Shown piece by piece: positions 5,427 through 63,168 of a stretch of DNA of 64,000 nt. The stretch covers positions 1,302,001 through 1,366,000 of the forward strand of contig NZ_FMIC01000002.1 of the NCBI RefSeq assembly GCF_900091625.1. Direction: 5' to 3'. How positions within the stretch are numbered: the first letter of the stretch is position 1; every line of letters begins with the position of its first letter. Under the pieces are notes generated by a model. The model searched no databases and had not been told where the DNA came from. It saw only the letters and a program-made list of their open reading frames with translations. The stretch comes from Micromonospora peucetia (GTDB taxonomy: Bacteria; Actinomycetota; Actinomycetes; Mycobacteriales; Micromonosporaceae). Made by a program: the position numbers and the translations under genes.

Positions 5427-6125
5427 GGCCGCGCAAACCGCCTGCCCTGGCGGGGCTTCATGCCCGGGTATACCGGTATTCGACTGGTTGGGCCGTTCGT
5501 CATCCATGTCGTCGGACGGTCCGTTCATCCGGACGTTCACCTTCTGGAAACTCCGCCTTACGCAACGCGGCATAACCAGACATAGAACTCTTATTGCCTC
5601 CCTAGTCTCGTCCGAGTGGTCGTTTACATTCACGACGGTGGGACGCCTGTCGTCCTCAAGGGACTTCCCGCCGCCAACTCCGCCCCGGTCCTCGTCGAGG
5701 TCACCGGACGCCGACATCGCCCGGCACGCCCCGGCGGAGTCCTCGCCGCAGCAGGCTCCCTGACGCACCTCCCGGTCATCGCGACCACTGTCCCGTCAGG
5801 ACCGGCGCTCCCGACCCCCCGCCCTCGGGATGTCGACGGCTCGCCCCACCCGCACGCGGCCGACCAGCCCCGCTCGTCCACAGGCGGGAGCGCCGACTGA
5901 CCACGGCGACAGTCAGCGGTACAGGCGACGCCAATCACGACACTTTGCTACTTCCGTGACGCCCTACGGGCTTCACGGCACATCTCGCCGCCCATTTGCT
6001 CATGCCCTGCGTCCGGCTTCCGCCGGACACCCCTGCCACCAGCCTGGTGATCGCAGGAGTTCGCAGAGGTGTTCACCGCATGGGACCGGTGCTGGCTCGT
6101 GATCAAGCAGGAGGTTTGCGGTTCC
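5427..6125. other. Non-coding stretch before the Pls-type NRPS
   Basis: About 700 bases with no convincing gene; the short open frames here have no recognisable protein character. Base composition is visibly lower in GC than the flanks. A 10-bp palindrome ATACCGGTAT lies at 5470-5479. The 3' end has a strong ribosome-binding site AGGAGG at 6109-6114 serving the GTG at 6126. The region presumably holds the cluster promoter, but no -10/-35 pair can be assigned with confidence. Confidence 0.5.
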
Positions 6126-9100
6126 GTGAAGCACGTAGGTCTCACCGGCACACCCGTGTCACCCCTGCGGCCGGAGCATCATCCGGACGCGGAGGCGCGG
6201 GTCGTGGTTGGCTCGCTGGACGTCGGTCCCGTGACCGGACTACGGGACGAAAGCGACGTCAAGCGCACGCGACGTCTGCACCACGTGTTCGAATCCGCTT
6301 GCGACCGGAATCCGTCGGCCATCGCACTCGAGCACGGCAGTGAGCGGTTGACCTACCGCGAGCTGGACGAGCGCGCCAACCGGTTGGCCCACCACCTGCG
6401 CGCGCTCGGTGTCGGTGCCGGCTCACGGGTGTCCATCCTGCTACGGCGCTCCGTCGAGACGTACGTGGCGTTGCTGGGCGTGGGAAAAGCCGGCGCCGCG
6501 TTCGTGCCGATCGACCCCGAGTCCCCGGCCGACCGGGTCGCCTACATCACCGAGGATTCCGACGTCGACCTGACGGTGACGTCCTCGGCGCTCGCCGACC
6601 GGGCCGGCGAGCGGCCCACTCTCGTCGTCGACGAGTGCGCTGCCGAACTCGCCGCGGCACCGAGCGACCGGCCGGAACTCGGCGGCGACGGAATCCAGGA
6701 CCCCAGCGCCTACGTGATCTACACCTCCGGGTCGAGCGGTCGACCCAAGGGCGTCGAGGTCGCGCAGTCGAGCATCTGCAACTTCCTCGAGGTGGTGCCC
6801 GGCGTGTACGACGTACGCCCGACGGACCGGGTCTACCAGGGCATGACGATCGCCTTCGACTTCGCAATCGAGGAGATCTGGCCGACCTGGTCGGTCGGCG
6901 CCACCCTGGTGGCCGGCCCGAACGACTCCCGCCGCCTCGGCGCGGAGTTGGCGGACTTCCTGGACGAGGCACGTGTCACCGTCTTCTACTGCGTGCCGAC
7001 CCTGCTGGCCACCATCCCGCGCGACCTACCCCGGATCCGCAACCTGCTCGTCGGCGGGGAGGCCTGCCCGGGGCAGTTGGTCGAGCGGTGGAGCCGGCCC
7101 GGCCGACGGATCCTCAACACCTACGGGCCGACCGAGGCCACGGTCACCGCGACCTGGGGAGAACTGCTCCCCGGACGGCCGGTCACCATCGGGCGGCCCC
7201 TGCCGACCTACTCCGTGGTGCTGCTGGACGAGCGGCGGCAGCCGGTCGTCGACGGCGAGGTGGGTGAGATCTGTATCGGCGGCCCGGGGGTGGCGCGCGG
7301 GTACGTGGGGCGCCCGGACCTGACCGCCGACCGGTTCATCGAACACGCTCTGGCGCCGCCCGGCAGTCGGCTGTACCGCACCGGGGACCTCGGTCGGATC
7401 ACCGCCGAAGGCGAAATCGAATACCTGGGCCGGGCGGACTCCGAGGTCAAGATCCGTGGCCATCGGGTGGACCTCGGTGAGATCGAGAGCGTGCTGCTGG
7501 AGGATCCGGGGATTGCCGAGGCCGTGGCTGCGCTGGTCCCGGTCGCCGACGACCCGGCCGCCCCCCACGAACTGGCCGCCTACCTCGTTGCGCACGACAG
7601 CGACGAGGGCGGGTGGGAGGAGCTGACCGTCCGGCTGTGCCAGACCCTGCAGACCCGGCTGCCCGGTTACATGGTGCCCTCCTTCCTGGATGTCGTCACC
7701 GCGCTGCCGACCATGCCCAGCGGAAAGGTCGACCGGAAACGACTGCCCCCGCCGAACCGCCGGCTCACCCTCCCCGCCGGCCCGCTGGTGGCCGCCGAGG
7801 GCGAGTTGGAGGAGCAGGTACGTGCGGCGTGGGCGGAGGCGTTCGGCATCGAGGCCGGGGCGCTCTCGGTCGAGGCGGGCTTCTTCACCGACCTCGGAGG
7901 GCATTCGCTGCTCGCGGCGCGGGTGGTGTCGCTGCTGCGCGCCCGCAAGGTCGGCGTGAGCCCGGCGGTCCGGGACCTGTACGCCCACCCGACCGTACGA
8001 GGCATGGCCGCTCACCTCGGCGCCGCCGATCGGACCGGTGGGTCCGGCGCGCCGCCCCGCCCCGCCCCGCTGCGGCACCGCAGCCGGCGGATCGCGCTGG
8101 CCGGGTCCGGCCAGGTGGCGGTGATCTACCTGCTGCTGTTGGCAGTCACGCTCCCCGTCTCCTACGTCTACACCCGCAACGACGGTCTCGTGTCGGCCCG
8201 CGTCCTCGCGGAACTGATGATCGCGATCCTGCTCAGCTACCTTGGCGTGCGGTGGGTGCTGCCGGTCCTGCTGGCCCGGCCCTTGGCCGCGGGCATCCGG
8301 CCCGGCCGGTACCGCCTGTGGGGGCTCACCTACGTCCGGCTCTGGGCGTTGGACACACTGCTGGCGGTCGGGCCGCTGCCTGTGCTCAGCGGTTCTCCGC
8401 TGATGGCGACCTACCTGCGGCTGCTCGGTGCCCGGATCGGCTGCCGGACCACGATCGCGACCAGCGCGATCAGTCTGCCGACCCTGATCTCCATCGGCCG
8501 GGACGCCTCAGTCGGGTACGGCGTTTCGCTGCGGCCGTGGCGGGCGGAGGACGGCTGGGTCGTCGTCGGGCCGATCATGATCGGGGCGGACGCCTTCGTC
8601 GGCGCGAACGCGGTCCTCGAGCCCGGCGCTTCGGTCGGGGCGCGAGCCGGCCTCGGCGAGCAGTCCGTCCTCGTCCACGGCGAGGCGGTGCCACCCGGAG
8701 CGCGTTGGGCGGGCTCACCGCCGGCTCCGACCCCCCGGCTCGCTCCCACCGTGGAATCGCTGCTCAGCTACCGCCGCCTGCGGCGTGGCTGGCGCCCGCA
8801 CCACGTCGCCGCCGCACTGGTCGGCCTGATCGGGCTGGAACTCGGGGCGATCGCGATGGTCCTGCCCAGCGTGGCGCTGGTGTGGTGGGTGCTGCTGACC
8901 CGAGGCCTGCTCACCGGCCTGGTCGCGACCATCCCGGCCGGGATCGTCTACGTGCTCACCGTCTGCGCGCTGGTCGCCCTCGGCAAGCGCCTTGTGCTGC
9001 CGCGGGTACCAATCGGCGTTCACCACCGCCTCCACTCGATGCTCGGCGTACGAAAGTGGATTGCCGACAAGCTGCTCGAGTCCAGCCTCATGTTCACCAA

Positions 9101-10211
9101 CTCGCTCTACGCGACCCTCTACACCGGGCCCTGGCTGCGACTGCTCGGTGCCCGGGTCGGCCGCGGCGCCGAGGTCTCCACCGCCGCGCACCTGGACCCG
9201 GACCTGCTCACCCTGGGGTCGGAGAGCTTCGTCGCCGACATGGCCAGCCTGGGCGCCGCGACGTTCGCCAACGGCCGGATGGCGTTCCTGCCCACCACGG
9301 TCGGCAGCCGGGCCTTCGTCGGAAACGCCGCGTTCGTACCGGCCGGCACGGTGCTGGGCGACGGATCCCTGATCGGCGTCGGCACGTTGCCGCCCGACGA
9401 CGGTGTCCCGGAGGGCACGTCCTGGTTGGGCTCACCGGCGATGCACCTGCCGGCCCGCCAGAGCAGCGGTTCCTTCTCGGAGGCGGTGACGTTCCGCCCG
9501 CCGCGCATCGTGGTGGCCCGCCGGCTGTTCGTCGAGTTCTTCCGCGCGACCCTGCCCGCATCGGTGCTCGGCGCCAGCTTCTACCTCTACCTCCTGGCGC
9601 TGTCCTCACTCGCCAACGGCCGGGACCTGCTCGTGCCGGCACTGGTGTCGCCCTTCGTCGCGATGGCGTCGAGCGTCGCGGTGATCGCCTTCTGCGCGGC
9701 GACCAAACGCAATGTCGTCGGCACCTACCAGCCCCGGGTGGAACCGTTGTGGAGCGGCTTCGTCCGGCGGACCGAGTTCGTCACCGGTCTCTACGAGGCC
9801 GCGGCGGTCCCCGCCGGCATCGGGCTCCTGGTCGGCACCCCGTTCCTGCCGCCGATGCTGCGCTGGTTCGGGGTCCGCGTCGGCAGACGCACCTGGATCG
9901 GCACGACGTACCTCACCGAGTTCGACCTGGTCGAGATCGGCGACGACGCGACCGTGGGCACCGAGGTGTCGCTGCAGACCCACCTCTTCGAGGACCGGGT
10001 GATGAAGATGTCCGTCGTCACGGTCGGCGCCGGCGCCACGATCGGCACCCGCGCCATCGTGCTCTACGACGCCGTCGTCGGCGACGACGTCATGCTGGGC
10101 TCGCTCTCGCTGCTGATGAAGGGCGAACACCTGATTCCCGGCACCCGATGGCGCGGGATCCCCGCCCAGGGAGTGCTCGCCCAGAGCACCACGAGACCAC
10201 GGGCGGCCTGA
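6126..10211 (+). CDS. Pls/PosA-type NRPS: A-T domains plus membrane/hexapeptide-repeat C-terminus
   Basis: A 1361-residue single-module synthetase of the type represented by epsilon-poly-L-lysine synthetase (Pls). Residues ~45-560 are an adenylation domain: YTSGSSGRPKG (A3), FDFAIEEIW (A4), NTYGPTEAT (A5), YRTGDLGR (A7) and the catalytic Lys in PSGKVDRK (A10). A carrier domain follows with DLGGHSLL and the phosphopantetheine Ser594. There is no condensation or thioesterase domain. The rest (~640-1361) alternates membrane helices (first near VAVIYLLLLAVTLPVS) with three blocks of left-handed-beta-helix hexapeptide repeats such as IGADAFVGANAVL, the family's terminal architecture. In Pls this part iteratively joins amino acids without a classical C domain. 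The acidic A4 context (FDFAIEE) hints at a basic substrate, but that is inference. The start is GTG 6126 behind AGGAGG. Confidence 0.9.
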   Translation: MKHVGLTGTPVSPLRPEHHPDAEARVVVGSLDVGPVTGLRDESDVKRTRRLHHVFESACDRNPSAIALEHGSERLTYRELDERANRLAHHLRALGVGAGSRVSILLRRSVETYVALLGVGKAGAAFVPIDPESPADRVAYITEDSDVDLTVTSSALADRAGERPTLVVDECAAELAAAPSDRPELGGDGIQDPSAYVIYTSGSSGRPKGVEVAQSSICNFLEVVPGVYDVRPTDRVYQGMTIAFDFAIEEIWPTWSVGATLVAGPNDSRRLGAELADFLDEARVTVFYCVPTLLATIPRDLPRIRNLLVGGEACPGQLVERWSRPGRRILNTYGPTEATVTATWGELLPGRPVTIGRPLPTYSVVLLDERRQPVVDGEVGEICIGGPGVARGYVGRPDLTADRFIEHALAPPGSRLYRTGDLGRITAEGEIEYLGRADSEVKIRGHRVDLGEIESVLLEDPGIAEAVAALVPVADDPAAPHELAAYLVAHDSDEGGWEELTVRLCQTLQTRLPGYMVPSFLDVVTALPTMPSGKVDRKRLPPPNRRLTLPAGPLVAAEGELEEQVRAAWAEAFGIEAGALSVEAGFFTDLGGHSLLAARVVSLLRARKVGVSPAVRDLYAHPTVRGMAAHLGAADRTGGSGAPPRPAPLRHRSRRIALAGSGQVAVIYLLLLAVTLPVSYVYTRNDGLVSARVLAELMIAILLSYLGVRWVLPVLLARPLAAGIRPGRYRLWGLTYVRLWALDTLLAVGPLPVLSGSPLMATYLRLLGARIGCRTTIATSAISLPTLISIGRDASVGYGVSLRPWRAEDGWVVVGPIMIGADAFVGANAVLEPGASVGARAGLGEQSVLVHGEAVPPGARWAGSPPAPTPRLAPTVESLLSYRRLRRGWRPHHVAAALVGLIGLELGAIAMVLPSVALVWWVLLTRGLLTGLVATIPAGIVYVLTVCALVALGKRLVLPRVPIGVHHRLHSMLGVRKWIADKLLESSLMFTNSLYATLYTGPWLRLLGARVGRGAEVSTAAHLDPDLLTLGSESFVADMASLGAATFANGRMAFLPTTVGSRAFVGNAAFVPAGTVLGDGSLIGVGTLPPDDGVPEGTSWLGSPAMHLPARQSSGSFSEAVTFRPPRIVVARRLFVEFFRATLPASVLGASFYLYLLALSSLANGRDLLVPALVSPFVAMASSVAVIAFCAATKRNVVGTYQPRVEPLWSGFVRRTEFVTGLYEAAAVPAGIGLLVGTPFLPPMLRWFGVRVGRRTWIGTTYLTEFDLVEIGDDATVGTEVSLQTHLFEDRVMKMSVVTVGAGATIGTRAIVLYDAVVGDDVMLGSLSLLMKGEHLIPGTRWRGIPAQGVLAQSTTRPRAA

Positions 10212-14530: not shown

Positions 14531-14731
14531 ATGTCCCTCACGACGCTGACCGTGGCCCAGGTGCTCGCCTGGCGGGACGGTCGACAACTGCCGCACCGGC
14601 CGGCGGGCGGGCGGCCCGTCGACGTGGACGAGCTCGGCGCCGTCCGCCCCGACGACGCCGTACGCCTGCTTCCCGCGTTCCCGGTGCGGGCGCACGTGCG
14701 GTCGTACCGGTCGGGGGGCGGCGATGCGTGA
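14531..14731 (+). CDS. 66-residue protein coupled to the PPTase gene
   Basis: Begins MSLTTLTVAQVLAWRDGR and ends RSYRSGGGDA. No signal peptide, membrane segment or known motif. Its stop lies 8 bases inside the start of the phosphopantetheinyl transferase gene, so the two are likely translated together. The last residues overlap the PPTase start region in another frame, which limits what can be inferred. The function is unknown; it may be a small partner of the transferase. Confidence 0.55.
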   Translation: MSLTTLTVAQVLAWRDGRQLPHRPAGGRPVDVDELGAVRPDDAVRLLPAFPVRAHVRSYRSGGGDA

Positions 14732-15380
14732 CCTGCTGCCGCCTGCGGTGGCGGTGGCCGTGGCCGGGCCGGCGGACTGGACGGGCGAGCTGCTGCCGGC
14801 CGAGCGGGCCTGCCTGACCGAACGCGCGGTGCAGAGCCGCCGCCGCGACTTCACCGCTGGGCGGGTCTGCGCCCGCCGGGCGATGGCCGCGCTGGGACTG
14901 CCCCCGGTCGCGGTGCCGGCGGCGGCGGACCGCTCGCCGGTCTGGCCGGCCGGCGTGGTCGGCGCCATCACCCACACCTCCGGCTACTGCGCCGCCGTCG
15001 CGGCCCGCGTCGGCGAGATCCGGTCGGTCGGCATCGACGCCGAGGGGCACCAGGAACTCAACGCGGGCGTACGCCGGCTGGTCTGCCTGCCCGAGGAGGA
15101 TGAACGGTGCGCCCGGCTGCCGGCGGGGACCTCCTGGCCGGCAGTGGTGTTCAGCGCCAAGGAGAGCATCTACAAGGTGTGGCACCCGGTCGTCGGCACG
15201 TGGCTGGGCTTCCACGACGCGCTGGTGGAGCTCGATCCGGATGCCGGCACGTTCACCGCCCGCATCGCGCCGGCCCGGCTCGACGCCGCCCCGGTGGCCG
15301 ATCCGCCCGCTCTGGTCACCGGCCGGTTCGCCGTCGACGACGCGCTGGTCCGCACCGCCGCCGTGCTACTGCCCCTTTGA
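14724..15380 (+). CDS. 4'-phosphopantetheinyl transferase, Sfp/EntD type
   Basis: A 218-residue enzyme that transfers phosphopantetheine from CoA to the active Ser of carrier proteins. Diagnostic motifs: RRDFTAGRVCARRA (residues 40-53), the SVGIDAE motif (residues 101-107) with the Mg-binding acidic residues, and FSAKESIYKVWHP (143-155). Length fits EntD-like transferases (210-250 residues). It sits about 700 bp after the NRPS operon in the same direction, so the natural substrate is likely the carrier domain around Ser594 of the 6126-10211 protein. It may also serve other carrier proteins. Confidence 0.92.
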   Translation: MRDLLPPAVAVAVAGPADWTGELLPAERACLTERAVQSRRRDFTAGRVCARRAMAALGLPPVAVPAAADRSPVWPAGVVGAITHTSGYCAAVAARVGEIRSVGIDAEGHQELNAGVRRLVCLPEEDERCARLPAGTSWPAVVFSAKESIYKVWHPVVGTWLGFHDALVELDPDAGTFTARIAPARLDAAPVADPPALVTGRFAVDDALVRTAAVLLPL

Positions 15381-58172: not shown

Positions 58173-58841
58173 CTACGACGGCTTCATGGCCGAAGGTGCG
58201 GTCGGAGGCTGAGCGGGCGGGGACGCGCGCCGGATCAGCACGACGATCCCGCTCACCGCCGTGGCCAGCAACGCCACCATCTCGACCGGGACAACCAGCA
58301 CGAAGGGAAGTCTCCAGTTTGCCGTCTGGGCCAGAAGCGTCCCAGCCACGGGTCCCAGACAGAGCGCCAGCCCCACCACGCCGCCCACGAGCGGCGCCAC
58401 CCACACGCGCCGCGCCCCCATCTGCGCGACCAGCACGGCCGTGGTGCCCCAGGCCAGGCCAGCCCCGAACCCGGTCACCGCGCGGCCGAGCAGCAGCGAA
58501 CCGCTTCCCGGCGCAAACGCGGTCAGCAGCGTTCCGAGAACCAGCAGCGTGATCGCGGACAAGGTGACGGCAGTGGGCCACCGCCGGCCGACCAGAGTGC
58601 CGGCCAGCACCGCCAGCACCGCGGGAAGCAGGTACGCGACGAAGATCCAGAGCTTCGCCGAGGCCGGCAGACCCAGGGCCCGCTGGATCGCGGTCAATGC
58701 CGGCCCGACAGTGACGGCGAGCAGGAAGGCACCCACCGACGCGGCAAGTGCCGGACCGATCACCAGCCAGACTGGACGGGCGTCGGGGCGCAGGCCATCT
58801 GCGGAAAGCTGCTTGGCCGTGCCGGGGAGGGGTGTGGTCAC
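58173..58841 (-). CDS. Half-length MFS-type transporter, probably truncated
   Basis: A 222-residue protein with about six helices (VWLVIGPALAASVGAFLLAVTVGPAL, LWIFVAYLLPAVLAVLAGTLVGRRWPTAVTL, LGRAVTGFGAGLAWGTTAVLVAQMGARRVWV, APLVGGVVGLALCLGPVAGTLLAQ, LPFVLVVPVEMVALLATAVSGIVVLI). Motif-A-like GTLVGRRWPTAV and motif-C-like GPVAGTLLAQ are those of the N-terminal half of DHA-type MFS exporters; the second half is absent and the end (PPAQPPTAPSAMKPS) is a short tail. It could be a remnant or a dimerising half transporter. GTG 58841 is used; ATG 58862 is possible. Divergent from the peptide operon across 149 bp. Confidence 0.7.
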   Translation of the reverse strand: MTTPLPGTAKQLSADGLRPDARPVWLVIGPALAASVGAFLLAVTVGPALTAIQRALGLPASAKLWIFVAYLLPAVLAVLAGTLVGRRWPTAVTLSAITLLVLGTLLTAFAPGSGSLLLGRAVTGFGAGLAWGTTAVLVAQMGARRVWVAPLVGGVVGLALCLGPVAGTLLAQTANWRLPFVLVVPVEMVALLATAVSGIVVLIRRASPPAQPPTAPSAMKPS

Positions 58842-58990
58842 CGGAGCAGCATACGACCGCACGGCACTGTGGCCGGCGTCCCGCTGAGGCGAGGATCAGC
58901 CGATCCGCCGGAGAGGCTGTGTTCACAGTGGACTTGCTGGTACGGTCGATGCGTTCCAGTGATCAACACCGATTAGTGAGGGAGACCCAC

Positions 58991-59080
58991 ATGACCGAGC
59001 AGGTTGAGGCCTTCGAGCCCGTGGCGTCCGACGACTACGACCAGGAACTGACCTGCCTGGAGCCCCCGGTCGAAGCCTGA
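58991..59080 (+). CDS. Putative RiPP precursor peptide, 29 residues
   Basis: A short gene directly upstream (6 bp) of a SagB-type dehydrogenase gene, with a clear GGGAGAC ribosome site before ATG 58991. The peptide reads MTEQVEAFEPVASDDYDQEL in its first 20 residues and ends with Thr-Cys-Leu-Glu-Pro-Pro-Val-Glu-Ala. Nine of 29 residues are acidic and there is no Lys or Arg. Its only Cys is position 22, next to Thr21. An acidic leader followed by a short Cys-containing core is typical of RiPP precursors; the role is inferred from position, size and neighbours. No membrane or signal segment. Confidence 0.7.
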   Translation: MTEQVEAFEPVASDDYDQELTCLEPPVEA

Positions 59081-59086
59081 GTAGTC

Positions 59087-60181
59087 ATGCGTGCCCGTGT
59101 GTCGCGGCTGGTCGTCTTCCTGTGGCGTGATGGTCAGCTCGTCTGCGACGATCCGCTGCGGCACCGGCAGTTCGCGTTGACTGTTGAGGCTGAGAGGCTG
59201 CTGCGCGACTACGCCGACTGGGCTGAGCCCACCGGCCGGCTCGCGCAGCAGCTCCTCGACGCCCACGTCCTCGTCGCCGAGGGCTCGCCGGAACATGCCC
59301 AGGAGGAACGCCTCGGCGCCTGGCGCGAGCTGGGGCCGGCGGCCACCTACTACCACCTGGCCAGCCGTACGCTCGGCAGCGACGTCTTCCGTTCCGCCGC
59401 CGAGGACGCCGCGGTGCTGCGCGCCAAGACCGGTCAGCCGGATCCGGTCAAGGAGTACGACGGGCCCCGCATCGCCCTGCCTCGTGCAGACCCGCCCGCG
59501 GTCGACTTCACCAGCGTCCTCGACGCCCGACGGTCGACGCGATGGTTCGACCCGGATCGCCCGGTGCCGCTGTCGGCATTCGCCGCCCTGTTGCGCTGGA
59601 CGGCCGGGGTCCGGCGCGAGGTGGATGTCTCGGGCGTCGGGACGGCGCTGCTCAAGACCGTTCCGTCCGGCGGGTCCCGCCATCCGGTCGAGGTCTATCC
59701 GGTCATCCGTGACGTCGAAGGGCTGGAGCCCGGCGTCTACCACTACTCGGTGCGTCGCCACGAGTTGGTGCGGCTCGCCGACGCCAGCGGCGAGGACCGG
59801 CTGCGCGAGTGGTGCGGCGGGCAGCCGCACGCCGCCCAGGCCGGTTTCCTGCTGATGTACGCGGCGGTCCTCGACCGGACCGTGTGGAAGTATCCGGCGG
59901 CGCGCGCGTACCGGGCGCTCCTGCTCGACGTCGGCCACCTGAGTCAGACCGTGTACCTCACCGCGACCGCACTCGGTCTCGGGACGTTCTTCACCGCCGC
60001 CACCCGCGACGCGCCTGTCGAGGACGCCCTCGGGCTGTCCTGGCCGGACGAGATCTTCCTCGGCGTGTCCGGCGTCGGCGTGCCGCATCCCGCCGAACGG
60101 GACCGCCAGGCGGCGATGCTCGCCGGCGGCGAGGCGGCGTTCTCCTTTCCCCCGGACGCCTGGCACGGACGGGGCGAATGA
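59087..60181 (+). CDS. SagB/ThcOx-family flavin-dependent peptide oxidase
   Basis: A 364-residue protein. The N-terminal ~95 residues (LTVEAERLLRDYADW...LAQQLLDAHVLVAEG) look like a winged-helix/PqqD-like recognition unit. The rest is a nitroreductase-fold FMN domain: DARRSTRWFDPDRPV (residues 146-160), VPSGGSRHPVEVYPVI (192-207), and the paired Lys268-Tyr269 in VWKYPAARAYRALLLDVGHLSQ, which matches the catalytic Lys-Tyr of azoline oxidases such as McbC. SagB enzymes oxidise thiazolines/oxazolines made by YcaO proteins; no YcaO gene is present here. The downstream gene overlaps by ATGA. It probably modifies the 29-residue peptide. Confidence 0.88.
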   Translation: MRARVSRLVVFLWRDGQLVCDDPLRHRQFALTVEAERLLRDYADWAEPTGRLAQQLLDAHVLVAEGSPEHAQEERLGAWRELGPAATYYHLASRTLGSDVFRSAAEDAAVLRAKTGQPDPVKEYDGPRIALPRADPPAVDFTSVLDARRSTRWFDPDRPVPLSAFAALLRWTAGVRREVDVSGVGTALLKTVPSGGSRHPVEVYPVIRDVEGLEPGVYHYSVRRHELVRLADASGEDRLREWCGGQPHAAQAGFLLMYAAVLDRTVWKYPAARAYRALLLDVGHLSQTVYLTATALGLGTFFTAATRDAPVEDALGLSWPDEIFLGVSGVGVPHPAERDRQAAMLAGGEAAFSFPPDAWHGRGE

Positions 60182-61197
60182 CGCCGAGGACGACCGTCGA
60201 CCTGGCCAGGCTGGACGCGAACATCTCACGGTACGGCAAGCTCGCGGACGAGGCCGGTGTCGCCCTGCGCGCACACGTCAAGGGACACCGGACGCCCGAG
60301 ATCGCCGCCCGGCAGGTCGCCGCGGGCGCGGTGGGCGTCGCGGTCCACTCCGCCGCCGAGGCCGAGGCCTACCTGGCGGTGGGCGTGACGGACGTGGCGG
60401 TGGCCTGGCCGTGGCGTGATCCGTGGCGGTGGACCAGGTTCGCCCAGCTCGCCCGGCACTGCGCGGTGACGGTGCACGTGGACCACCCGGACGCGGTGAC
60501 CGGGCTCGGCGCGGCGGCCGTGGCTCATGGCGTCGCACTCGACGTACGGATCGAGGTCGACACCGGCCTGCACCGGGTCGGCGTCGACCCCGACGCCGCC
60601 GGGGAACTGGCCACGTCGATCGCGGAGACCCGCGGGCTACGCCTGGCGGGCGTGACCGGGTACGTGGGGATCACCGACCCCGTCACCGCACGGGACAGGG
60701 GCGACCTGGGCCGCCGCCAGGCGCAACTGCTGGTGTCGGTCGCGCAGCGGATCCGCGCCACCGGAGCACCCTGCCCGACGGTGAGCGTCGGGGGCACACC
60801 GACCCTCCTCGGCGCGCTGGGCGTCGCCGGTGTGACCGAGGTCTGCGCCGGCGCGTACGCGCTGCTCGACGGCGGGCTGGCCCGGCTCGGCGAGTGCGCC
60901 CCCGAGGCGGTCGCGATCGCCGTCACCACGACCGTCACCGGCATCGACGGGCAGGTGCCGCGCACCGACGCCGACACGCTGCTCGCGGGCGCCGACCAGA
61001 CCTGGATGAGCGGTGTCGTGATGACCCGGCCCGACGGCACGCCGGTCGCCGCCGACTCGGTGTCCGTGGGAGACGAACTGCGGGTGCTGCCCGGACACGT
61101 GTGCCCGGTGGTGGCCCGCCAGCCGCTGCTGCACGTGCTCGACTCCGGCGAGCCGGTGGCGCGGTGGCAGGCGCTGGTCCGCCCGGATCGGGCATGA
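60178..61197 (+). CDS. PLP-dependent D-threonine aldolase/D-serine dehydratase-like enzyme
   Basis: A 339-residue fold-type III PLP enzyme. TVDLARLDANISRYGKLADEAGVALRAHVKGHRTPEIA contains the PLP-binding Lys35 (HVKGH), matching the HVKTHK context of D-threonine aldolase and eukaryotic-type D-serine dehydratase. DVRIEVDTGLHRVGV and VTGYVGI are barrel motifs. The C-terminal PGHVCPVV (His307-x-Cys309) is the metal-binding pair that marks this subfamily and separates it from alanine racemases. It should cleave or dehydrate a beta-hydroxy D-amino acid. Within a peptide-modifying operon its substrate may be a released modified amino acid. ATG 60178 overlaps the previous stop. Confidence 0.87.
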   Translation: MTPRTTVDLARLDANISRYGKLADEAGVALRAHVKGHRTPEIAARQVAAGAVGVAVHSAAEAEAYLAVGVTDVAVAWPWRDPWRWTRFAQLARHCAVTVHVDHPDAVTGLGAAAVAHGVALDVRIEVDTGLHRVGVDPDAAGELATSIAETRGLRLAGVTGYVGITDPVTARDRGDLGRRQAQLLVSVAQRIRATGAPCPTVSVGGTPTLLGALGVAGVTEVCAGAYALLDGGLARLGECAPEAVAIAVTTTVTGIDGQVPRTDADTLLAGADQTWMSGVVMTRPDGTPVAADSVSVGDELRVLPGHVCPVVARQPLLHVLDSGEPVARWQALVRPDRA

Positions 61198-62441
61198 CCG
61201 GCGCCGTCGCGTCCGTGGACCGCCCGGTGGACCCGCTGCGCCAGCGCCGGTTCGTCCTGTTCGCCACCGCCAGGACGATCTCCGTCTTCGGCAACGCGAT
61301 GGGTCCGCTCGCGCTGACCTTCGCCGTACTCGATCTTCCCGACGGATCGCCCCCGGCGTTGGCGCTCGTGCTCGCCGCGATCTCGGTGCCCAGGATCGCG
61401 CTGATGTTGCTCGGCGGCGTCATCGGCGACCGGCTGCCGCGCCACCGCGTGCTGGTGGCCGCGGAGCTGCTGTGCGGTACGGCCTACGGCGCGATGACCG
61501 TCCTCGTCCTGACCGGGCGGGCGGGCGTCGCCACCCTCGCCATCTGCGCGGCCGTCGCCGGCACCGCCTCCGCGCTGCTGCTGCCCTCGCTGACCGGGCT
61601 GACCGCCGAACTGGTCGCGCCGGAGGCGCGGCAACGCGGCAACGCCGTGCTGCGGCTGGGTACGAACACCGCCACGGTGGCGGGCTTCACCGCCGGCGGC
61701 GCGCTGATCGCCTGGCTGGGGCCGGGTTGGGCGCTGGCCCTCGACACCGCCACGTTCGCCGTCGCCGCCGGACTTCTCGCGCGGCTACGCCTCGCCAGGA
61801 CGTCCCGGCCAACCCGGCGGAACCTGCCGGCCGAACTCCGCGACGGTTGGCGCGAGTTCGTCCGGCGGGCCTGGCTGTGGCGGATCGTGCTCGCCGCGGC
61901 CGTGATCAACGCCGCCGTCGGGGTCACCTTCGGGCTCGCGGGGCCGTTGCTCGCCAGGACACACCTGGGTGGCGCGGGCGCGTGGTCCGGCATTCTCGCC
62001 GGGTACGCGGTGGGCATGTTCGCCGGTGTGCTGGTCGCGATGCGGATCAGGACGACCCGTCCGCTGCGAGTGGCCGTGCTCGCCGTGTCGGTGCTGGGAC
62101 TGCCGGCGCTGCTGCTCGGATCCGGCGCCGCGCTGCCGTTCGTGATAGCCGCCGCCGTGCTGGCCGGGGTGGCCTTCGACGTCTTCGGGGTGCTGTGGGA
62201 GACGACCGTCCAGTCCGAGGTGCCGACCGAGGCGATGTCCCGGGTGAGTGCCTACGAGTGGCTGGGGGCGGTGGGCCTCGGACCGCCGGTCATGATCGCC
62301 GCCGGCTTCGTCGTACCCGAGATCGGCGTACGAACGACCCTGCTCGGTCTGGCCGCGGTGATCTTCGTCGCCGCACTCGCCCCGTTGGCCAGTTCCCCCG
62401 TCCGGCACTACGAAAGGCAACCCGATGGCCGAGTACGTTGA
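61194..62441 (+). CDS. MFS exporter of the peptide-derived product
   Basis: A 415-residue 12-helix MFS protein of the EntS/multidrug type: RRFVLFATARTISVFGNAMGPLALTFAVLDL (motif typical of this group), LLGGVIGDRLPRHRVLVAAELL (motif A), LLPSLTGLTAELVAPEARQRGNAVLRLGTN, LLARTHLGGAGAWSGILAGYAVG, and the terminal SAYEWLGAVGLGPPVMIAAGF. ATG 61194 overlaps the preceding stop. Its position in the middle of the tight operon suggests it exports the product and may protect the producer. It is unrelated in detail to the half-length MFS gene at 58173-58841. Confidence 0.9.
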   Translation: MTGAVASVDRPVDPLRQRRFVLFATARTISVFGNAMGPLALTFAVLDLPDGSPPALALVLAAISVPRIALMLLGGVIGDRLPRHRVLVAAELLCGTAYGAMTVLVLTGRAGVATLAICAAVAGTASALLLPSLTGLTAELVAPEARQRGNAVLRLGTNTATVAGFTAGGALIAWLGPGWALALDTATFAVAAGLLARLRLARTSRPTRRNLPAELRDGWREFVRRAWLWRIVLAAAVINAAVGVTFGLAGPLLARTHLGGAGAWSGILAGYAVGMFAGVLVAMRIRTTRPLRVAVLAVSVLGLPALLLGSGAALPFVIAAAVLAGVAFDVFGVLWETTVQSEVPTEAMSRVSAYEWLGAVGLGPPVMIAAGFVVPEIGVRTTLLGLAAVIFVAALAPLASSPVRHYERQPDGRVR

Positions 62442-63168
62442 CGCCTTCGCCACGGCGTATGACCGCTTCTGGGCGCCGTACCCGGAGCGGATGGGCGACG
62501 CGTGGCTGCGGCTGCACGCACAGGTGGCACCCGGAGCCGAGCGGAGCCTGCTCGATGTCGGCTGCGGTACCGGCATCGTGGCCGCCCGGTTCGCCGCCGC
62601 CGGCTACCGGATCGTCGGGGTCGACATCTCCGAGGCGATGATCGCCCGTGCCCGCGAACGGCTGGCCGGCACCGACGCGGTGCTGATCGCCGCGGACGCC
62701 ACGGACTTCGAGGTGCCGCGTCCCTGCGCGTTCGCGCTCTCCACGTACGACATCCTCAACCACGTCGGCGAAATCGACCGGGTCCGCGCCTACCTGCGCC
62801 GCGTCCACGCGGCGGTCGCGCCGGGCGGATGGTTCGGCTTCGACATGTCGACGATCAGAGGGCTGCGCGCCGATGTCCCACCGGTCACCCGGCAGGACGG
62901 GACAGCCTCCGTCGTGGCGGCTCGTGGCCCGCTCGACGGCGACCGCCGCCCGCTGCACATCACCGGCGAGCTACGCACCGACGACGGCCGCGCGACCCCG
63001 TTCGCCACGACGATCACCAACACCGCCCATCCCGTCGCCGACGTGCTCCGCGCCCTGACGGAAGCCGGCTGGGTGCCGAGCCACGTCGCCGCCATCGACG
63101 ATCTGCTCACCCCGGTACCGGACCCGGAGGCGCTGCCCCGGGTCGCGGTGGTCGCCCGACGCGACTGA
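62425..63168 (+). CDS. SAM-dependent methyltransferase of the peptide operon
   Basis: A 247-residue class I methyltransferase: AEYVDAFATAYDRFWAPYPERMGDAW (N-terminal cap), RSLLDVGCGTGIVAARFAAAGYRIVGVDISEAMI (motif I, D-x-G-C-G-T-G), VLIAADATDFEVP, VHAAVAPGGWFGFDMSTIRGL. The later part (HITGELRTDDGRATPF) is variable. Its start lies 17 bp inside the exporter gene, the tightest overlap of the operon. It probably O-, N- or S-methylates the product; target unknown. Last gene of the operon, followed by a ~135-bp gap before the convergent permease gene. Confidence 0.9.
   Translation: MAEYVDAFATAYDRFWAPYPERMGDAWLRLHAQVAPGAERSLLDVGCGTGIVAARFAAAGYRIVGVDISEAMIARARERLAGTDAVLIAADATDFEVPRPCAFALSTYDILNHVGEIDRVRAYLRRVHAAVAPGGWFGFDMSTIRGLRADVPPVTRQDGTASVVAARGPLDGDRRPLHITGELRTDDGRATPFATTITNTAHPVADVLRALTEAGWVPSHVAAIDDLLTPVPDPEALPRVAVVARRD

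Follow-up and report, generated by a model that had tools for sequence, protein, structure and literature searches.

A candidate RiPP operon built on a SagB-type oxidase without YcaO in Micromonospora peucetia

The window analyzed here, a 64,000-nt stretch of the 7.37-Mb genome of the soil bacterium Micromonospora peucetia (C2:1302001–1366000; positions are numbered within the window unless a contig or locus is named), contains a compact operon in which a 29-residue peptide is encoded beside a SagB-type flavin oxidase. Its reading as an operon for a ribosomally synthesized and post-translationally modified peptide (RiPP) that lacks YcaO, first proposed in a first-pass annotation made from the letters alone, is well supported at the level of sequence. 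It rests on a precursor motif common to four lineages, an oxidase domain resembling a RiPP recognition element (RRE), a YcaO-less genome (G354) that retains the operon, and motif-bearing precursors near some sister oxidases. We are confident of the pairing of precursor and RRE-oxidase. It is probable that these two work with a pyridoxal phosphate (PLP) enzyme, a major facilitator superfamily (MFS) protein and a methyltransferase in the pathway proposed below.

The operon is read entirely from the forward strand. The precursor gene (58991–59080; MTEQVEAFEPVASDDYDQELTCLEPPVEA) begins with an ATG at 58991, has a stop codon ending at 59080 and encodes the pair Thr21–Cys22. As had been described, a gap of 6 bp separates it from the ATG of the SagB/ThcOx-type flavin mononucleotide (FMN) oxidase gene (59087–60181), and each later gene overlaps its predecessor. 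These encode a fold-III PLP enzyme of the D-serine dehydratase/D-threonine aldolase type (60178–61197), a putative MFS exporter (61194–62441; PF07690 and PF05977 over cut-off) and a class I S-adenosylmethionine methyltransferase (62425–63168). The overlapping gene set thus stands as annotated, except that the methyltransferase can be discarded as a core part and is better called accessory: its orthologue lies inside the operon only in Micromonospora loci, and elsewhere only a 28% partial match was found, in L150 and away from the operon. All five genes are present in each of the four Micromonospora relatives that were fetched, and an MFS relative accompanies the oxidase–PLP pair in 10 of 10 loci. 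The operon is rare, with a PLP orthologue at ~85% identity or more in 5 of 160 Micromonospora genomes and a PLP match below 40% identity in a further seven.

Every one of the five Micromonospora genomes in which the operon was found retains the 29-codon frame. Eight of its 29 codons vary among them; six of the eight differences are synonymous, and the remainder are Val/Ile5 and the last residue. Allowing GTG, TTG and CTG starts does not lengthen the frame beyond 29 residues in L125, L126 or L127. Beyond Micromonospora, the genome searches, which are samples drawn from larger groups, gave five matches above 500 bits, all of which were fetched (L128, L150 and L151 of family f19; L179 and L195 of family f21) and all of which have oxidase, PLP and MFS genes. 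The f19 peptides FEAPYEDDYAMPESC (L128), FEELGEDEYSAPQTC (L150) and FEPIIEDEYDAPQSC (L151), encoded with oxidases that are 52–56% identical, have the spacing of the window segment FEPVASDDYDQELTC, namely FE-x4-D[DE]Y-x4-[ST]C. The pattern FE-x4-[DE][DE]Y-x4-[ST]C is found 5′ of the oxidase in these three loci. It did not arise once when each upstream region was dinucleotide-shuffled 20,000 times; having been composed after the peptides were seen, it gauges rarity rather than providing a blind test.

Of the 10 loci where the oxidase is joined by PLP and MFS genes, 8 therefore have a motif peptide; five of these 8 are near-identical Micromonospora. The motif is shared by four lineages, and all four, with a PLP gene, have the Cys. 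The expectation that the peptide would recur beside oxidase homologues holds for these eight loci and fails at L179 and L195. Conservation of a Thr-Cys-Leu-Glu-Pro-Pro core, also proposed for checking, did not survive comparison: [ST]C alone is shared and LEPP is not kept, which rules out TCLEPP as the conserved core. From these sequence comparisons we are confident that the frame is a real, conserved precursor gene beside a modifying enzyme, and more than a chance occurrence.

The oxidase scores 121 bits against TIGR03605 (SagB-type dehydrogenase; cut-off 78.4) and 82.8 bits against PF00881 (cut-off 23.5). Its best NCBIfam score, 193.4 bits, is to TIGR04511 (putative peptide maturation dehydrogenase) and lies under that family's cut-off of 240. 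The Lys-Tyr pair noted in the first-pass annotation belongs to W267-K268-Y269, which is invariant in all 34 aligned sequences (the window and 33 of the 44 closest database oxidases, P0001–P0044; alignment A1). The N-terminal domain (residues 1–84), suggested earlier as a place for leader binding, has a predicted fold that resembles an RRE, and the NRPS-associated oxidase BmdC (NRPS, nonribosomal peptide synthetase) is a near structural relative. Plasmid matches comprise 22 records, every one below 60% identity, and no relative was found on viral contigs.

The PLP protein belongs to PF01168, with a borderline match to PF14031 (22 bits, cut-off 22) and a weak C-terminal domain. Its nearest types are 3-hydroxy-D-aspartate aldolase, D-threonine aldolase and D-serine dehydratase, and its closest solved relatives are D-threo-3-hydroxyaspartate dehydratase, D-threonine aldolase and D-serine dehydratase (3wqc, 3anu, 4v15). 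Fold-III enzymes of this kind use a lysine to hold PLP and an HxC pair to bind metal. The corresponding K35, H307 and C309 are kept in 11 of 11 rows, representing 10 genomes (L020 and L027 are one genome), suggesting that the enzyme is probably active; two aligned solved chains are altered at exactly the C and H places of the HxC pair.

The next oxidase clade, here called the sister clade, was read at eight loci (L021, L129, L130, L131 and L152–L155), ~15 kb each. Three of the eight have motif-like precursors more than 1 kb 5′ of the oxidase, built from FE..DxY..NHNE units: L129 (5846–6172) and L154 (5782–6099) encode three head-to-tail units like VFEVHQDDYTQPESALTYNHNE, and L155 (9336–9524) encodes one. 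Precursor and oxidase are separated by a TPR gene in L129 (by Pfam) and L155 (by eye); in L154 the gene caller listed none there. L021 has one worn unit at a different position. In L152 and L153 an ATP-grasp maturase-like gene lies directly 5′ of the oxidase (TIGR04187, ~109 bits, cut-off 350); L131 resembles these two by eye, and nothing was recognized in L130. The three intact sister precursors have no Cys, its place being taken by Ala in six of seven units and by His in the seventh, and no PLP relative was found in the eight loci. These precursors point to a multi-core RiPP family that deserves separate study.

The first-pass annotation had remarked that the operon contains no YcaO gene, and this holds for the whole window. 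Its suggestion to look elsewhere in the genome turned up two PF02624 genes, at C2:682001–683008 and C2:2517458–2518501, whose distances from the operon are ~680 kb and ~1.15 Mb. A distant YcaO could form an azoline at Thr-Cys for the oxidase to aromatize, making the operon one part of a split azole RiPP cluster, and at least one YcaO is present in seven of the nine other operon genomes. The remaining two, G354 and G1452, have no YcaO at E ≤ 0.01. G354, which is 99% complete, has the peptide, oxidase, PLP and MFS genes, and G1452 is an operon genome without the motif peptide, so the operon can be retained without YcaO. YcaO acting in trans is thereby ruled out as a general requirement, by one genome with the peptide and one without it, and a split cluster is highly improbable, being largely refuted by G354. 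Only slightly less remote is the idea that the 29-codon open reading frame (ORF) is a regulatory leader of the oxidase, an attenuator or translational coupler rather than a substrate. The ORF does end 6 bp short of the oxidase gene, and a 20-residue ORF overlaps the oxidase start in L195 and L150. Against such a role stand conservation of the peptide sequence accompanied by synonymous drift, the spacing fixed across families, and the single Cys in place of a run of a sensed residue. Moreover, the motif ORF of L128 stops 187 nt before the oxidase, and the sister precursors lie farther than 1 kb from theirs, in L129 with the TPR gene between.

The points against an exclusively RiPP reading come from the two loci without a motif peptide, since the pattern is not found 5′ of the oxidase in L179 or L195, and from one of them in particular. 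In Kitasatospora sp. MMS16-BH015 (G1039; L179/L187) an NRPS cluster encloses the oxidase, PLP and MFS genes, in the order aminotransferase-like gene, PLP, Hmo-like oxidase, SagB-type oxidase, MFS; the run also holds two NRPSs (ORFs of 2179 and 2127 residues), Rieske- and TauD-like oxygenases, a P450, a thioesterase and an HmaS-like dioxygenase (all names assigned by eye). An NRPS match also ends ~5 kb 5′ of the L151 peptide. These arrangements, with the structural closeness of BmdC, would suit enzymes that produce or modify a small molecule or an NRPS-type peptide attached to a carrier, with a BmdC-like oxidase and the short ORF as a leftover or minor partner. We regard this as unlikely. The motif peptide is present in most such loci, and the nearest A-domain of the window is ~51 kb upstream of the operon. 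In the flanks fetched for L128, L150, L195 and the Micromonospora loci, the only NRPS match was A-domain-like, at 28.6%, and lay at the distal end of L189, which flanks L128; 3′ of the operon this search covered 0.8 kb in the window and a few kb in the Micromonospora relatives. In a tree that took in 27 of 120 listed database rows, and from which L021 was excluded for want of a single open frame, both sides of a 33-row clade (100/99) include peptide-bearing lineages; L179 and L195, which both carry methionine-gamma-lyase-like and OsmC-like genes, group with the peptide-bearing L150, weakly (93/68). With this position inside the peptide-bearing clade, it is simpler to suppose that the peptide was lost or replaced, and the L179 set looks derived from a peptide-bearing state. 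L179 may be a second case of a RiPP-type oxidase taken into an NRPS pathway; the BmdC authors raised the transfer of an RRE-oxidase from a RiPP cluster into such a pathway (PMC8795117).

Under the RiPP reading that we favor, the acidic leader (FE-x4-DDY, with Y-x-x-P in relatives) would dock onto the RRE-like domain, and the FMN domain would oxidize the following [Ser/Thr]-Cys segment directly, without a YcaO-made azoline. The reaction would most likely be a two-electron dehydrogenation (−2 Da) giving a dehydro-residue; we place a two-electron oxidation at or next to [ST]C with fair confidence. A host protease could then release the core TCLEPPVEA (9 residues; 7–11 in relatives) or a smaller piece. 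PLP enzymes of this kind require a free amine, and the PLP step is therefore put after leader removal. The Ser/Thr-Cys unit now exposed at the N-terminus, or an amino acid removed from that unit, might then undergo epimerization, β-elimination or deamination. Finally, the methyltransferase would cap the product, presumably a bioactive one, and the MFS protein would export it. Our confidence in the exact product and in the PLP step is weak.

A wider history can be sketched tentatively. Here a RiPP family with a lasso-like FE..DxY..P leader would have a self-sufficient RRE-flavin oxidase; one branch would have gained the Cys and the fold-III PLP enzyme together, making a small, exported, sulphur-containing molecule from [Ser/Thr]-Cys, and the set would later have been taken over by a nonribosomal pathway in Kitasatospora. 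If so, one tailoring module would serve both ribosomal and nonribosomal scaffolds. The Kitasatospora locus offers a direct view of a RiPP-type oxidase in an NRPS pathway, the origin that the BmdC authors raised for such enzymes (PMC8795117). SagB-type oxidases of the well-known kind complete azoles that YcaO has started, and the oxidase here would have to do something else, pointing to a little-known route to small peptide-derived molecules. The defined set of loci, with precursors of 29–35 residues and a recognizable leader motif, reduces to a small system of one peptide and one enzyme, and the motif is a handle for locating precursors beside orphan SagB genes.

Several features lie around the operon or beside more distant oxidases. 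An imperfect palindrome found by eye 5′ of the peptide gene (58921–58933; GTTCACnGTGGAC) is a candidate operator, identical in four of five Micromonospora loci and with one change in L020. On the minus strand a short MFS-like gene (58173–58862) adjoins the operon; L125 and L127 carry a GNAT-like gene (by eye) at its position, so the left neighbor is not conserved. Farther upstream, 6069–10211 encodes an NRPS-like protein (A-domain match 6309–8006), and 14724–15380 is a phosphopantetheinyl transferase-like gene by eye. Other oxidase clades also carry short, mutually similar ORFs just 5′ of the oxidase: KKMLxCKA-type (L022, L165, L180), VRRKKTRSRLLNNHG-type (L023, L024, L160, L161, L163), the Mesorhizobium SQGMHYNKR and related types (L032, L033, L038, L071, L169), repeated RIVFATGSA units (L069, L070) and IEP/IEK...III-type (L132, L156). 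On Priestia sp. J2 plasmid pA (1–15024; L167) a distant oxidase (7001–8110) and an MFS gene lie between nickel/cobalt ABC importer genes, with a 29-residue ORF (MKHMTVFKPCENEYKIRV...) 5′ of the oxidase. This hints that some such peptides may be metallophores, a lead only, with nothing supportive noticed near the window operon.

No description of this gene set was found in the openly licensed papers searched, in keeping with the earlier remark that it matches no nameable RiPP class. SagB-like enzymes that do without YcaO nevertheless have precedents in two reports (PMC12636437, PMC8939145). The ThcOx, McbC and SagB azoline oxidases (TIGR03605) are alike in the FMN domain and KY motif and, in ThcOx, an RRE-like domain. 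Azole (LAP/TOMM) RiPPs have YcaO in the cluster, whereas the window operon has none and the G354 genome, with peptide and operon, lacks YcaO altogether. PflD, an MNIO–nitroreductase fusion of the pfl/pos clusters, has a YcaO-free nitroreductase domain that makes Z-dehydroPhe (−2 Da) on a RiPP precursor (PMC12636437), a similar use of this domain. It differs in its fusion to an MNIO and its work with a HEXXH enzyme, neither of which is in the window operon (the Pfam scan of the oxidase found no MNIO domain, only PF00881 being over cut-off), and the window peptide has no Phe after Tyr16. BmdC, the bacillamide oxidase, serves an NRPS (PMC8795117); within the window, the nearest NRPS match is ~51 kb from the operon. 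The methyltransferase scores 47.7 bits against the daptide equivalog NF041820, under its cut-off of 175. None of the five operon proteins has the ATP-grasp domain of graspetides, yet branch 6 of that class is reported to include a YcaO-free SagB-like enzyme in a RiPP locus (PMC8939145), and ATP-grasp genes adjoin the sister oxidases L152 and L153. The PLP protein shares its PLP lysine and HxC pair with D-threo-3-hydroxyaspartate dehydratase, D-serine dehydratase and D-threonine aldolase; it differs from the solved enzymes in being shorter, in its weak C-terminal domain and in its place beside or near an RRE-oxidase in ten loci.

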